From the NCBI GenBank assembly GCA_035764935.1, contig DASTYK010000071.1:1-35673 (forward strand): a DNA stretch of 35,673 nucleotides, given 5' to 3'. Shown piece by piece: positions 3,169 through 34,603 of this stretch. Positions within the stretch are counted from its first letter, which is position 1. Each line of letters starts with the position of its first letter. The DNA is from Longimicrobiales bacterium (GTDB taxonomy: Bacteria > Gemmatimonadota > Gemmatimonadetes > Longimicrobiales > RSA9). The notes below the pieces were generated by a model, which saw only the letters and a program-made list of their open reading frames with translations, was not told where the DNA came from and did no database searches. A program made the translations under genes and the position numbers.

Positions 3169-4598
3169 TCAGCCGAGGCGGCTCCGTGCCTGTGTGAGCT
3201 GCGCGAGCACCGCCTGCCGGGAGGTCGCGCCGGGCACAGAGCGCGCCTCCACCGAGGCGAGCGCGGTAAGCTCCGGCCGGCCGCCCTCGAGGAGCACGGG
3301 ATGCGCGGCGCCCCACGCGGCCTCCGGCAGCTCGGACACGCTGCAACCGGCGGCATCGGCCGCGCGCAACAGTCGACCGACTGCACCGTGCGCTTCCCGG
3401 AACGGCACACCGCGGCGCACCAGCTCGTCGGCGATGTCCGTCGCGATGAGCGATTCGTCGCTCACTGCGTCGGCGAGCGGCTGCTCGTTGAAGCGGAGCA
3501 GCGCGACGGTTTCGCGCGTGGCGGGCAGCAGTGCGAAGAGCGCGTCGAGTGCGGAGAACAGCAGTCGCTTGTCCTCCTGCAGGTCCTTGTTGTAGCCGCT
3601 GGGCACGGACTTCACCATGGCCAGTGCGGCCGTCAGCTCGCCGATGAGGCGGCCGGCGATCCCGCGCGCCAGCTCCAGTCCATCCGGGTTGCGCTTCTGC
3701 GGCATGAGGCTGGAACCGGTCGTGTACGCCTCCGGCAGCTCGACGAAGCCGAACTCCTGCGTCGAGAAGACGATCAGGTCCTCCGCGAGGCGCGACAGGT
3801 GCGCACCGACCGTCGATGCGACGAAGATCGTCTCGATGATCCAGTCCCGGTCGCCCACCGCGTCCAGCGAATTCTCGCTGATCGTCCGGAACCCGAGCAG
3901 CTCCTTGAGCAGCGTGCGGTCGACATCGAAGCCGGACCCGGCAATGGCGCCGGAGCCGAGCGGCAGCACCGCAACGCGCTCGAGGGCGCCCTGCAGTCGC
4001 TGCCGGTCGCGATCCAGTGCCCAGAAATGCGCGAGCAGCCAGTGCGCCACGCGAACCGGCTGAGCCCGGCGCAGGTGCGTATACGACGGCATGAGCAGAT
4101 CGATCGTGTCCGTGGCCTGGTCCACCAGTGCCGCCTGCAGCGCACGCAGCTCCGCGTCGATGCGGGTCAGCGCGCGGACCGTCCAGAGGCGTGCATCGGT
4201 TGCGACCTGGTCATTGCGCGAGCGGCCGGTGTGCAGCTTGCCCGCGACCGGACCGGCGACTTCGTAGAGAAGCCGCTCGACCAGCGTGTGGATGTCCTCG
4301 TCGTCGCTGTCGAACAGCGCAGGCTCGTGGGCCAGCCGGTCCCGGACCTTGCGCAAACCCGTGTCCAGTGCGCGCGCCTCCGCGACCGTCAGCACATCAG
4401 CGCGCGCGAGCGCCTGCACCCACGCGCGGCTCGCCTCGATGTCCTCACGCCACAGCCGGCGATCGACGGGCAGACTCCGGTTCAGCTCCTCGAGCGAGGG
4501 TGCCGGGCCGGCAGCGAACCGCCCCCCCCAGAGCCGGTGACCCGGATCGGTGGGTGCCGACTGCGTCGTATCGACCTGCTGCATTGTGACGCTCCGCG

Positions 4599-30477: not shown

Positions 30478-31711
30478 TCGTCGCCTCCGGCAGCTCGATC
30501 GTTCGTACCCCGCCAGCGCTGCAGTCGACGACGCCGTCGGCGACGCGCAGGGCGAACTCCGCACCGGGCTGGAACTCGCTCACCGAGCGAAGGATGCGAC
30601 CGTTGCGCGCCAGCGGAACGGCGTAGCCGCGGCGCAGCGCGGCCAGCGGGGAGAGCGCATCGAGCATCTCGGCGCAGCGGTTTGCGCGCTCCTGACGGGC
30701 ATCGATCAGATCGCGGATCCCCTGCTCCAGCGCTTCCGCCGCGCCGTCGATCGAGTCACGCGCCGCATTGACGCGCCAGTCGATCGCGCGCTGCATCCGC
30801 GTGCGCAGCCCGTCCGTTTCGCGCGACAGGGATGCGTGATCGGGTACCGCGCGCTCCGCCGCGGCGCTCGGCGTCGGCGCGCGGTAGTCAGCGACCAGGT
30901 CGGCGATGGTGACGTCGATCTCGTGACCGACGGCGCTGATGACCGGCACGCTGCATGTCGCGATCGCGCGTGCGACCGGCTCCTCGTTGAATGCCCACAG
31001 GTCCTCGATCGAGCCGCCACCGCGACCGACGATGATGACGTCGCAGAGGCCGACGCGATCCAGCCGTGCGAGCGCCCGCGCGATATCAGGGGATGCGCCT
31101 TCACCCTGCACGCGTGCGGGCGACAGGACCACGCGCGTCCAGGGTGCACGCTTCTGCACCACGTGCAGGATGTCGTGCAGTGCGGCACCGGCCGCAGAGG
31201 TCACGACCCCGATGGTGGACGGATGCGCGGGCAGCGGCCGCTTGCGCTCCGGCGCCAGCAGCCCCTCGCCTTCCAGCCGACGCCGCAGCTTCTCGAACGC
31301 GAGCCGCCAGAGTCCATCGCCGCCGCCCGCCTCGAGCTCGCGCACACCCAGCTGAAAATCGCCGCGCCGTTCGTAGAGCGTGAGCGTACCGAACACGCGC
31401 ACCTCCATGCCCTCCTCCGGATCGGCAGGAAGACGGGCGGCATCACGCGAGAACATCACACAGCGGACCTGTGCGTTCCGGTCACGCAGCGTGAAGTAGC
31501 AGTGGCCGCTGGATGCGTAGCGCTTCCACCCCGTGACCTCGCCCCGCACGAAGATGGGCGGGAACGAGCCCTCGATGATGTTGCGGGCGTAAGCATTCAG
31601 AGTGGACGGCGTGTAGTCATGCTGCCCTGCGTTCTGCAACGACCAGCTGCTGCCCTGCCGGACATACGCGCGCCGCGGCGGCCGCGCATCGCCCTCGAAG
31701 AAATCCCGCAT
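30470..31711 (-). CDS. xseA: exodeoxyribonuclease VII large subunit
   Basis: Catalytic subunit of the ExoVII single-strand DNA nuclease, 413 aa. An OB-fold domain (about 32-135; FVRGEVTGWKRYASSGHCYFTLRD and GTLTLYERRGDFQL) precedes the nuclease core with IGVVTSAAGAALHDILHV, DVIIVGRGGGSIEDLWAFNEEPVARAI and VPVISAVGHEIDVTIADLVADYRAPTPS. The C-terminal coiled coil is somewhat short, and the tail has LSPLAALRRGYAV. ATG at 31711 shares one base with the folD stop (TGATG). The N-terminal ~30 residues before the OB-fold are an extension. Confidence 0.97.
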   Translation of the reverse strand: MRDFFEGDARPPRRAYVRQGSSWSLQNAGQHDYTPSTLNAYARNIIEGSFPPIFVRGEVTGWKRYASSGHCYFTLRDRNAQVRCVMFSRDAARLPADPEEGMEVRVFGTLTLYERRGDFQLGVRELEAGGGDGLWRLAFEKLRRRLEGEGLLAPERKRPLPAHPSTIGVVTSAAGAALHDILHVVQKRAPWTRVVLSPARVQGEGASPDIARALARLDRVGLCDVIIVGRGGGSIEDLWAFNEEPVARAIATCSVPVISAVGHEIDVTIADLVADYRAPTPSAAAERAVPDHASLSRETDGLRTRMQRAIDWRVNAARDSIDGAAEALEQGIRDLIDARQERANRCAEMLDALSPLAALRRGYAVPLARNGRILRSVSEFQPGAEFALRVADGVVDCSAGGVRTIELPEATNG

Positions 31712-32613
31712 CAGCGCGCAACCGCCTCCGACGCCGTGATCGCACGCGCCGCGCGCAGCGTGTTCTGCAGCAGCATCGTGATCGTCATGGGACCGACACC
31801 ACCGGGAACCGGCGTGATCGCCCCCGCGACCTTCTCCGCCTCCTCGAACTGCACGTCGCCCACCAGCCGGTACCCGCGCTTCGCGCTCGGGTCCTCGACC
31901 CGGTTGATGCCGACGTCGATCACGACCGCACCCGGCTTGATCATGTCACCGCGGATCATCTCCGGCCGGCCCACGGCCGCGATGAGAATATCCGCCTGGC
32001 GCGTGATCGCACCCAGGTCCTGCGTGCGCGAGTGCGCGACCGTCACCGTCGCATCACCGCCACGCCCGTTCCGGAGCAGCAGCAGCGCCATCGGCCGGCC
32101 GACGATGGTCGAACGGCCGACGACCACGGCGTGCCTGCCGCGCGTGTCGTAGCCGGAGCGCAGGATCATCTCGATTACGCCGGCCGGGGTGCACGGCGCC
32201 AGCACCTCCGTATCGCCGACCGCGAGGCGCCCCGCATTCACCGGGTGAAAGCCGTCGACGTCCTTGGACGGATCGATCGCCAGCAGCACGCGGTTGGAGT
32301 CGATGTGCTTCGGCACCGGCAGCTGGCACAGGATGCCGTGCACGCGCGGATCCGCGTTCAGCCCCTCGATCACGCCGAGCAGCTCGTCTTCCGACGTTTC
32401 CTCCGGCAGCTTGATCGTCCGCGAGTAGAAGCCGGCCGCCTCCGCCGCCTTGCCCTTGGAACGGACGTATACCTCGCTCGCCGGGTCATTGCCGACGATC
32501 ACGACGGCGAGGCCGGGCTGTACGCCGGTCTCCTCGCGGAATGCCGCGGCGTCCTGCGCGATCTCCGCGCGGATGGTTTCGCTCAGTTCGGTGCCGCTGA
32601 TGATCTTGGCCAT
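31711..32613 (-). CDS. folD: methylenetetrahydrofolate dehydrogenase / methenyltetrahydrofolate cyclohydrolase
   Basis: Bifunctional one-carbon enzyme oxidising 5,10-methylene-THF with NADP and hydrolysing the methenyl form; 300 aa. Visible are [17 protein letters not shown] (46-62) with the catalytic Tyr49/Lys53 pair, [13 protein letters not shown] (93-105), [13 protein letters not shown] (114-126), [10 protein letters not shown]-like TPAGVIEMI, the Rossmann motif [17 protein letters not shown] and the C-terminal [21 protein letters not shown] at 32613 is chosen; no ribosome binding site precedes it, only an A-rich tract. A perfect -10 TATAAT is 65-70 bp upstream inside a repeat-rich region. 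It leads the folD-xseA-xseB-ispA-dxs-nadK-recN transcript. Confidence 0.97.
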
Positions 32614-32628
32614 TTGCTTTTTTTCTAC

Positions 32629-32655
32629 CACGGAGTGCACAGAGGGCACTGAGTT
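32629..32655 (+). repeat. periodic repeat module A, left copy
   Basis: Three tandem 9-mers: CACGGAGTG, CACAGAGGG, CACTGAGTT, consensus CACNGAGNN. It starts 16 bp upstream of the folD start codon. The preceding TTTTCTAC is part of the usual border of such elements. Confidence 0.85.
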
Positions 32656-32677
32656 ATTTGTGTTCTACGCTCTGCTA

Positions 32678-32683
32678 ATTATA
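32678..32683 (-). promoter_or_regulatory. folD operon -10 element
   Basis: A perfect TATAAT on the minus strand between repeat modules A and B, with transcription expected to start near 32671 (leader about 58 nt). The -35 position holds only GTCTCA at a 17-base spacing, so either the promoter depends on an activator or the -10 alone, or it is fortuitous. Confidence 0.45.
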
Positions 32684-32697
32684 ACGGAAATTTTCAC

Positions 32698-32723
32698 CGC
32701 TGAGACGCGGAGGGCGCTGAGTT
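32698..32723 (+). repeat. periodic repeat module B, left copy
   Basis: Units CGCTGAGA, CGCGGAGGG, CGCTGAGTT, a CGC variant of module A, bordered by TTTTCAC and TTTTTC. It has close reverse-complement relatives at 32977-33004. Confidence 0.85.
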
Positions 32724-32776
32724 TTTCTGGTTGGCTTCGACGCGTGGAGGGAGGCCCGTTTTTCATCCGGTCCTGA

Positions 32777-32871
32777 TGCAGCCTCGGAGCCCGTTGTATT
32801 TGTAATGGCATTCACAGCGGGTGCCAATGCTACAGACTCCGAGGGTGAATGGAACTCGAGCATGATGCATC
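32777..32871. repeat. nested imperfect inverted repeat (hairpin) in the centre of the repeat region
   Basis: Outer arms GATGCA/TGCATC, middle arms CCTCGGAG (32782-32789) and CTCCGAGG (32837-32844), inner arms TGTAATGGCA and TGCCAATGCTACA (32801-32833, small bulge). The pairing could form in DNA or RNA on either strand. No U-tract follows, so it is not an obvious terminator. Confidence 0.6.
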
Positions 32872-32911
32872 CCACGTCGATCTCACCCCACGGCGAACCG
32901 CTACAAGAAAA

Positions 32912-32947
32912 CCCTGTGCATCCTCAGTGTGCTCAGTGATCTCTGTG
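32912..32947 (-). repeat. periodic repeat module A, right copy (inverted)
   Basis: Read on the minus strand: CACAGAGAT, CACTGAGCA, CACTGAGGA, then the degenerate TGCACAGGG. Same 9-bp period and consensus as the left copy but opposite orientation. Confidence 0.8.
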
Positions 32948-32976
32948 GTTGACAACGCTGTTGGGCGTGGCTCGAA

Positions 32977-33004
32977 AACTCCGCGCCCTCCGCGGCTCAG
33001 CGGT
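32977..33004 (-). repeat. periodic repeat module B, right copy (inverted)
   Basis: Read on the minus strand: CGCTGAGC, CGCGGAGGG, CGCGGAGTT, preceded by TTTTTCAC, nearly identical to the left B module. It begins 19 bp beyond the rny stop codon. Confidence 0.85.
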
Positions 33005-33023
33005 GAAAAAGATCCGTTCGAGA

Positions 33024-34589
33024 CTACCGGGCAAAATCAACAGCGCGCGTCTCACGGATCACGACCACCTTGATCTGCCCCGGATACTGCAGCTCGTCCT
33101 CCAGCTTGCGGGCGATCTGCTCGCTCAGCTCCGACATGGTCGTGTCGTTCACGTTCTCCGGGTCGACGAGCACGCGCACCTCGCGGCCGGCCTGGATGGC
33201 GAAGCAGCGCTCGACACCGGGGAAGCCGTTCGCGATCTCCTCCAGCTTCTCGAGGCGCTTCACGTAGGTCTCGAACATCTCGCGCCGCGCGCCGGGGCGG
33301 GCGCCGCTGATCGCGTCGCCGGCGGTGACCAGGAAGGTCTCGGCGTAGCGGTGCGGCTCCTCGTCGTGGTGCGCCTTGATCGCGTTCAGCACCTGGTCGG
33401 GCTCGTTGTACTTCTTGCACAGGTTCCAGCCGAGCTCGACGTGCGTGCCCTCATGCTCGTGCGTGAGGCCCTTGCCGACGTCGTGGAGCAGGCCCATGCG
33501 CTTGGTCATGGTCGCGTCCAGGCCCATCTCGGCGGCCATGTTGCCGGCCACCCGAGCGACCTCCTTGGCGTGCAGCAACTGGTTCTGCCCGTACGACGTG
33601 CGGAACTTGAGCCGGCCCAGGACCTTGAGGATCTCCGGGTGGACGCCGTGCACACCGAGCTCGTAGCACGCTTCCTCGGCCGCCTGGATCATCCCCTCCT
33701 CGACTTCCTTGCGGCTCTTCTCGACGACCTCCTCGATCCTGCCCGGATGGATGCGCCCATCCGCCACGAGCTTCTCCAGCGCCAGGCGCGCAGTCTCGCG
33801 CCGGATCGGGTCGAAGCCGGAAAGGATCACGGCTTCGGGGGTGTCGTCGATGATGACGTCGATGCCGGTCGCCTGCTCGAACGCGCGGATGTTGCGCCCT
33901 TCGCGCCCGATGATGCGCCCCTTCATCTCGTCCGACGGAAGACTGACGACGGAGACGGTGCTCTCGGCCGTGTGGTCCGCGGCAATGCGCTGGATGGCGA
34001 GTGAGACGATGTTGCGAGCCTCACGCTCCGCTTCCCGCTTCGCGTTCTCCTTGATCTCGCGGATCGTGTTCGCGGCGCGGGCGCGCGCCTCTTCCTCCAG
34101 CCCCTGCATCAGCCGCTTGAGCGCTTCCTCGGAGCTCAGCCCCGCCAGCGCCTCCAGCCGCGCACGCGCCTCCTGCTCCACCCGCGCCGTCGCCTGGTCG
34201 CGCGCCTGCAGCTCGGCTGCCCTCGTCTCCAGGGCACTTTCCCGATCCGCGACCTGCCGTTCCTTGCCGTCCAGCAGGTCGTACTTCCGGTCCAGTGCGC
34301 TGCGACGCTCCTCGATCCGCTGCTCCGTCCGCTCCAGGTCCTCCCGGCGCCGCGCCTCCTCGCGCTCCCAGTCCTCGCGCGCGCGATACGCCTCTTCCTT
34401 GCCCTTCAGCTCGGCGGCCCGCTTGAGCCGTTCGGCCTCCGCCCCGGCTTCCTCCCGGATGCGCGCTGCGACGGATTCTGCATCGGCCTTGTGCCTTTGC
34501 AGTCGCCTGCGCTCGAGCCACCATCCGGCGAGCACGCCCACGAGGGCGGCGCCGACGGCGATCACGCCGAGCAGCAACGGAGAATCCAT
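33024..34589 (-). CDS. rny: ribonuclease Y
   Basis: Membrane-anchored endoribonuclease starting mRNA decay; 521 aa, normal. One N-terminal membrane helix (about 4-25), a long Glu/Arg-rich coiled coil (30-200), a KH domain with MKGRIIGREGRNIRAFEQATG (222-242), and an HD domain with LLHDVGKG (367-374) and IKAHHDEE. The C-terminal region VDPENVNDTTMSELSEQIARKLE is family-typical. ATG at 34589 is chosen because GGAG lies five bases upstream; an in-frame GTG at 34595 would overlap that site. Upstream are pheT, a ZapB-like gene and zapA on the same strand. Confidence 0.97.
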   Translation of the reverse strand: MDSPLLLGVIAVGAALVGVLAGWWLERRRLQRHKADAESVAARIREEAGAEAERLKRAAELKGKEEAYRAREDWEREEARRREDLERTEQRIEERRSALDRKYDLLDGKERQVADRESALETRAAELQARDQATARVEQEARARLEALAGLSSEEALKRLMQGLEEEARARAANTIREIKENAKREAEREARNIVSLAIQRIAADHTAESTVSVVSLPSDEMKGRIIGREGRNIRAFEQATGIDVIIDDTPEAVILSGFDPIRRETARLALEKLVADGRIHPGRIEEVVEKSRKEVEEGMIQAAEEACYELGVHGVHPEILKVLGRLKFRTSYGQNQLLHAKEVARVAGNMAAEMGLDATMTKRMGLLHDVGKGLTHEHEGTHVELGWNLCKKYNEPDQVLNAIKAHHDEEPHRYAETFLVTAGDAISGARPGARREMFETYVKRLEKLEEIANGFPGVERCFAIQAGREVRVLVDPENVNDTTMSELSEQIARKLEDELQYPGQIKVVVIRETRAVDFAR

Positions 34590-34603
34590 GATCACTCCAG
34601 AAA

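Follow-up and report, generated by a model that had tools for sequence, protein, structure and literature searches.

In a 35,673-nucleotide stretch of a Longimicrobiales genome (hereafter, the window), the gap between folD and rny holds inverted repeat modules of the kind that also forms the ends of small elements built around a single GxxExxY gene. The folD–rny stretch is probably a non-autonomous, MITE- or REPIN-like derivative of these GxxExxY elements that was mobilised in trans, with the GxxExxY protein as the putative catalyst. Many phyla have inverted repeats with short periods like these, for which no explanation is accepted; the GxxExxY proteins make up an abundant curated family that is uncharacterised and named from its motif only. 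A link between the two would provide a candidate enzyme for the repeats and a candidate substrate for the GxxExxY family, both of which are directly testable. If the mobility is true, the elements would rank with the smallest autonomous DNA elements described (~450 bp, with one gene of ~120 codons).

Repeat modules between folD and rny

Two related modules of ~33 bp each, the CAC-type module A and the CGC-type module B, lie on the plus strand at the folD end of the gap and inverted at the rny end (Table 1). In A and A', a T-tract and a YYAC-type box precede three perfect units, (CACNGAGNN)3; B and B' follow the formula CGCTGAG-N-CGCGGAG-GG-CGCNGAG; the outer AACGGA extension of module B was also found by blastn in other B copies. 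The A-tract of module A is no more than ~8 bp away from the folD ATG (32613). A combined CRC pattern with up to two mismatches had four matches in the window versus a shuffle mean of 0.15, with none of 100 shuffles reaching four, and the B-type pattern had two exact matches versus none in shuffles. The 9-bp-periodic repeats in opposed orientation described in the initial annotation are thus real. Strict periodicity holds for the A modules and fails for the B modules, in which the first spacer is one base short, a constant feature of this family across the genome. The order A-B...A'-B' had been given correctly, and the spacers, put at about 40 bp on the left and 30 bp on the right, are close to the ~44 and ~31 bp that separate the cores (36 bp for A–B and 23 bp for A'–B' when counted between the 33-bp modules).

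The ~95-bp inverted repeat whose three arm pairs (GATGCA/TGCATC, CCTCGGAG/CTCCGAGG and GGCA...TGCC) are nested, also noted at the outset, is present in the interior and measures 97 bp, though as a single strand it is only modestly stable (DNA fold z = -2.1; 5 of 200 shuffles equally good). It had no second copy among the examined elements, and blastn with the whole insert recovered only the modules elsewhere. The pairs A/A' and B/B' enclose no intact gene, the longest stop-free stretch being 81 aa (32654-32922, with no gene-like frame), and no similarity to GxxExxY was found when gene-less elements were searched for a decayed copy. A known structured RNA was also considered and set aside, the stretch having no Rfam match at E ≤ 1, and a search for plasmid DNA similar to the insert returned none.

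Table 1. Features of the folD–rny region and the GxxExxY genes of the same genome. Positions are those of the window unless a contig is named.
Feature	Position	Strand	Description
Module A (left)	32621..32653	+	T-tract + CTAC + (CACNGAGNN)3, outer end towards folD; PWM score 48.0
Module A core	32629-32653	+	perfect (CACNGAGNN)3 pattern match
Module B (left)	32683..32721	+	AACGGA + T-rich + TCAC + CGCTGAG-A-CGCGGAG-GG-CGCTGAG; without the outer extension 32690-32721; core 32698-32721
Module A' (right, inverted)	32923..32955	-	perfect (CACNGAGNN)3, core 32923-32947; PWM score 42.4
Module B' (right, inverted)	32979..33019	-	without the outer extension 32979-33010; core 32979-33005; outer end ...GGTGAAAAAGATCCGTT, rny stop 4 bp away
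Interior inverted repeat, three nested arm pairs	32775..32871	.	from sequence
Complete inserted stretch, outer limits approximate	32617..33019	.	occupies nearly all of the 410-bp rny-folD gap
folD (flank)	31711..32613	-	PF00763, PF02882; start from sequence
rny (RNase Y; flank)	33024..34595	-	PF12072, KH, HD; stop codon 33024-33026
GxxExxY gene, contig C81	3693-4040		modules 3653-3677 (+) and 4052-4076 (-), A-type; cores 15 and 11 bp from domain match
GxxExxY gene, contig C84	8381-8728		bracketed by C-type modules

Insertion into a short intergenic gap

The rny–folD synteny is conserved in relatives. The gap measures 16, 18, 26, 32, 33, 54, 56 and 76 bp in eight genomes of the same family, 18 bp being found in the closest rny relative (G002), and 146 bp in G008. 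Since it spans 410 bp here versus 16–76 bp in most relatives, the repeats arrived by insertion, as the comparison with relatives proposed in the initial annotation shows. The reading as mobile DNA given there is likewise supported. In a genome of another genus (G004), this gap has independently received an insertion of 213 bp that contains CGCCGAG modules, which counts for a GxxExxY-element origin, and two further genomes (G025, G027) also have CGCCGAG-type units in larger rny–folD gaps. These gaps suggest a permissive, insertion-prone site.

No target-site duplication was found in 36 module pairs, whose flanks did no better than permuted ones; a MITE derived from a classical IS, which requires such a duplication, was rejected on this comparison. 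The interleaved A-B-A'-B' order is unlike the product of a simple two-ended element and, like the missing duplications, counts against a GxxExxY-element origin. Separate insertions of single ends could have produced it, as could a combination of A and B ends. The same order occurs in one further copy in the genome (C99:2669-3104), in which A' and B' are 24 bp apart versus 23 bp in the window, with weak similarity (71% over 90 bp). A shared interior of the two copies was rejected, as only the modules and this 90-bp stretch align.

A dispersed family of modules

Genome-wide pattern searches of the 3.83-Mb genome, a member of the Gemmatimonadota, were combined with a study of the modules in 66 segments (176 kb). 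The CAC pattern, with up to two mismatches, had 104 matches and the CGC pattern 27 (nine of them overlapping within one tandem stretch on C13), versus none for either reversed control. The copies that the initial annotation expected from a genome-wide search therefore exist. A PWM run over the 66 segments recovered 138 modules versus none in reversed sequence.

Once the modules were aligned on their cores, information was limited to exactly three units and the ~10 bases upstream of them (a T-rich run followed by YYAC), with no conservation outside this part. Three families were distinguished: A has CAC units, B has CGC units and its constant short spacer, and C reads CACAGAGGTCACAGCGGACAC.... 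Most modules lie in inverted pairs 34–440 bp apart, and the pairs are often layered with gaps of 0–4 bp (A-B...B'-A', B-C...C'-B') into long potential hairpins. Single modules are not individually palindromic and fold no better than shuffles (z -1.6 and -0.3). In four elements (C36:4672-4970, C182:3761-4063, C129:25065-25364 and C186:6885-7115), the interiors have in common a hairpin similar to GTAGTTGCTTCGCGGC...GCCGCGAAGCAACTAC, the loop of which is conserved in part; it may be an additional module or a structured portion of these elements.

GxxExxY genes and their inverted ends

Both PF13366 (GxxExxY) genes found in the genome lie tightly between inverted modules, and the modules of the window match the termini of these elements (A-type on C81, C-type on C84). 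The linked gene exceeds the curated HMM cut-offs of TIGR04256 (149.5 bits versus 35) and PF13366 (147.1 versus 22). Among 42 paired modules examined, only the C81 pair held a recognisable gene.

The association extends well beyond this genome. An alignment scan of public genomes for GxxExxY gave at least 585 relatives, from which 80 loci in many phyla, including archaea, were kept; positions shifted by 1.1–1.9 kb within the same loci served as controls. An inverted repeat with a score of at least 35 flanked GxxExxY in 45 of 78 testable loci versus 1 of 385 controls, and at a score of at least 45 the counts were 28 of 78 versus 0. When arms were found without the use of the motif (score at least 30), 46 of 56 contained two or more CRCNRAR units 8–12 bp apart versus 17 of 1600 control 40-mers. 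Most arms at GxxExxY loci contain CRCNGAG units at 8–10-bp spacing, in agreement with the earlier remark that similar repeats exist in several phyla. Mismatches between left and right arms affect 4.5% of the positions in the motif, 24.8% of N positions and 37% of spacer positions. Such retention of the motif, far better than that of N and spacers, argues for a protein that reads the repeated unit; hairpin pairing alone was rejected as the constraint for the same reason. Spacer identity within pairs was above that of permuted pairs (3.54 versus 2.69 of 7), driven by young C-type pairs. Whole elements typically measure 425–480 bp, and at one locus (L159), with an element of 463 bp, both sides end in TTAACCACGGAGGACACGGAGAGCACGGAGG.

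About 40% of the named GxxExxY loci have no clear inverted repeat at a score of at least 35, which counts against the element reading. Among Gemmatimonadota loci sampled by PF13366, 17 of 30 reached this score versus 0 of 159 controls. Only 6 of a further 17 loci did so, and thus not every GxxExxY member has such ends; several Gemmatimonadota copies are without any inverted repeat. Two loci have other arrangements, with GxxExxY flanked by 6-bp (CAACTG)n arrays at L130 (G250) and accompanied by everted CACAGAG arms at L131 (G057).

Across 41 relatives, GxxExxY is present in all six genomes with at least 10 module matches (Fisher p = 0.006; Spearman 0.60, both ignoring phylogeny), and none of the f2 genomes among them has the gene. 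Presence and absence of the gene were also seen at a syntenic site in family f3 (L355–L367), where six genomes have GxxExxY and others with a conserved left flank are without it; these 'empty' versions diverge too strongly downstream to serve as a clean empty site of a gene-bearing element. At that site, G015 has an apparent solo module.

The GxxExxY protein

The product of the GxxExxY gene has ~116–125 aa and its AlphaFold model a pLDDT of 94.7. Its conserved residues include E23, D63, E73-x-K75 and Q87, of which E73 is nearly invariant, and amount, by sequence, to a PD-(D/E)XK pattern. The best fold match was the catalytic domain of the I-Bth0305I homing endonuclease, with a probability of 0.99, although its E-value was 0.011. 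Cas4-like and XisH-like folds ranked next, and a Holliday-junction resolvase came further down. The confident model with such fold matches counts for a GxxExxY-element origin, and the weakness of each match by itself counts against it. A search of the PDB gave no sequence relative of GxxExxY.

A parallel family of four-helix-bundle genes

Genes for a four-helix-bundle protein (PF05635/TIGR02436) were examined in the same manner at loci L100–L103 and L325–L354. In Gemmatimonadota, inverted repeats with a score of at least 35 were present at 27 of 33 loci versus 0 of 192 controls, with arms that are mostly 6–7-bp-periodic, e.g. (GGAGTCA)n. All four copies in the genome of the window are bracketed (L100–L103: C165:36665, C90:3072, C59:7139 and C173:21874). 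These loci suggest that elements with one gene between short-period ends form a broader class. A bolder proposal, for which we judge the case evenly balanced, is an unrecognised class of minimal mobile elements in many bacterial and some archaeal phyla, each with one tiny gene (the PD-(D/E)XK GxxExxY nuclease or, as a sister group, the four-helix-bundle protein) between inverted arrays of 6–10-bp tandem units acting as repeat-counted recognition sites, the gene-less copies making up many CACNGAG/CACGAAG-type intergenic repeats.

A possible mode of spread

We propose that the inverted modules would be the terminal recognition sequences of GxxExxY elements with one PD-(D/E)XK nuclease gene each. 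An end would begin with a T-rich edge, followed by a YYAC box and then by CRCNGAG units spaced at ~9 bp, of which this genome has exactly three, and would be read through repeated sequence-specific contacts and not by arm pairing alone. An intact element would provide the nuclease, which could then act on any inverted module pair and so spread gene-less copies. An A-type and a B-type unit would in this way have entered an ancestrally short folD–rny gap, where they are now interleaved. We infer that GxxExxY catalyses the movement, presumably by cutting at the modules and subsequent DNA copying; for example, the ends might be nicked or cleaved, with gap or template-switch copying as the next step. 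Speculatively, the absence of target-site duplications would fit nicking with repair or template-switch copying. GxxExxY could also be cargo, or a nuclease or regulator that acts on the repeats.

By analogy, the system whose working appears most similar is that of REPINs with RAYTs (TnpA_REP; PMC3116915, PMC8266576), with which the modules share short, dispersed, often gene-less inverted doublets without detected target-site duplication and one linked gene flanked by the same repeats. The differences are that the gene linked here is a putative PD-(D/E)XK rather than an HUH gene and that the modules are 9-bp-periodic. The folD–rny stretch resembles MITEs of classical IS as a non-autonomous terminal-inverted-repeat pair akin to the ends of an element that carries a gene, but has short-period tandem-unit ends, showed no target-site duplication and is linked to a PD-(D/E)XK protein in place of a classical transposase. 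The intervening sequences of 23S rRNA with an S23/four-helix-bundle ORF (PMC4990558; 428 nt in the Coxiella IVS) are likewise selfish elements of ~430 bp with a single small gene; that gene is of the S23 type and lies inside 23S rRNA, whereas the genes considered here are PF13366 and intergenic. In a search of open-access journal papers, no link between such repeats and GxxExxY was found.

Alternative explanations

The elements might instead move through a host or unrelated factor, e.g. by replication-template switching at inverted repeats, with GxxExxY as cargo or as a selfish nuclease that lands on pre-existing repeats. We consider this unlikely. The missing target-site duplications, the layered and interleaved repeats, a homing endonuclease as the nearest solved fold and the parallel architecture of the four-helix-bundle genes, which had no nuclease family match here, would all fit it; a dedicated role for GxxExxY is favoured by how tightly the gene fits the ends, the element often being only 425–480 bp, and by the co-occurrence of the gene with repeat number.

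It is very unlikely that the modules are binding sites of a chromosome-wide DNA-binding protein (a global regulator or a nucleoid or segregation factor) and that their inserted look is secondary. The far better conservation of motif positions than of spacers would be expected of such sites, and Geobacter metallireducens has inverted pairs of arrays, made up of four octanucleotide or five heptanucleotide repeats, that were annotated as 'predicted global regulator binding sites' (PMC2700814). These arrays and other multicopy sequences (PMC2996986) share with our modules opposite-strand pairs, variable distances and short-period units; they differ in unit sequence and in being read as regulator sites, and the passages that describe them name no GxxExxY gene. 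Binding sites would sit poorly with a gap that is expanded here and short in most relatives, with a module copy number that varies between 0 and 253 within a single order, and with the same arms flanking one gene family across phyla.

Least probable of all, and strongly disfavoured, is a spread of REP/REPIN elements by a RAYT (HUH, Y1_Tnp) transposase with GxxExxY as a passenger. The likeness to REPINs already described (PMC3116915) speaks for it, as do the GTAG that A-type modules give in reverse complement, a Spearman correlation of 0.47 between module count and Y1_Tnp, and the two Y1_Tnp genes of the repeat-richest relative (G029, 253 matches); high copy number and Y1_Tnp presence, however, show no significant association by Fisher's test (p = 0.32). 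A RAYT-type transposase had been raised in the initial annotation. PF01797 has no match in the 96%-complete genome of the window, for which RAYT/Y1_Tnp was rejected as the mobiliser, and is absent from the repeat-rich family members G002 and G004; of the four genomes richest in repeats, three (G000, G002 and G004) have no Y1_Tnp. The RAYT genes of G029 (L305, L306) are flanked by a classical non-periodic REP (GGGCGAATGAATTCGC...GCGGAC) unrelated to its CACAGAG hairpins, while module hairpins lie to either side of its only GxxExxY gene. As RAYT is absent from three repeat-rich genomes and adjoins a different repeat in the fourth, it is not the common factor. Membership in the REP/REPIN of RAYT was also rejected on the modules themselves, which do not fold as palindromes and have YYAC, not only CTAC, at their edge.

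The CACAGAG hairpins of G029 number ~100 copies, and at L236–L274 they form a mosaic with a second repeat that has the ends TGATACCA...TGGTATCA.
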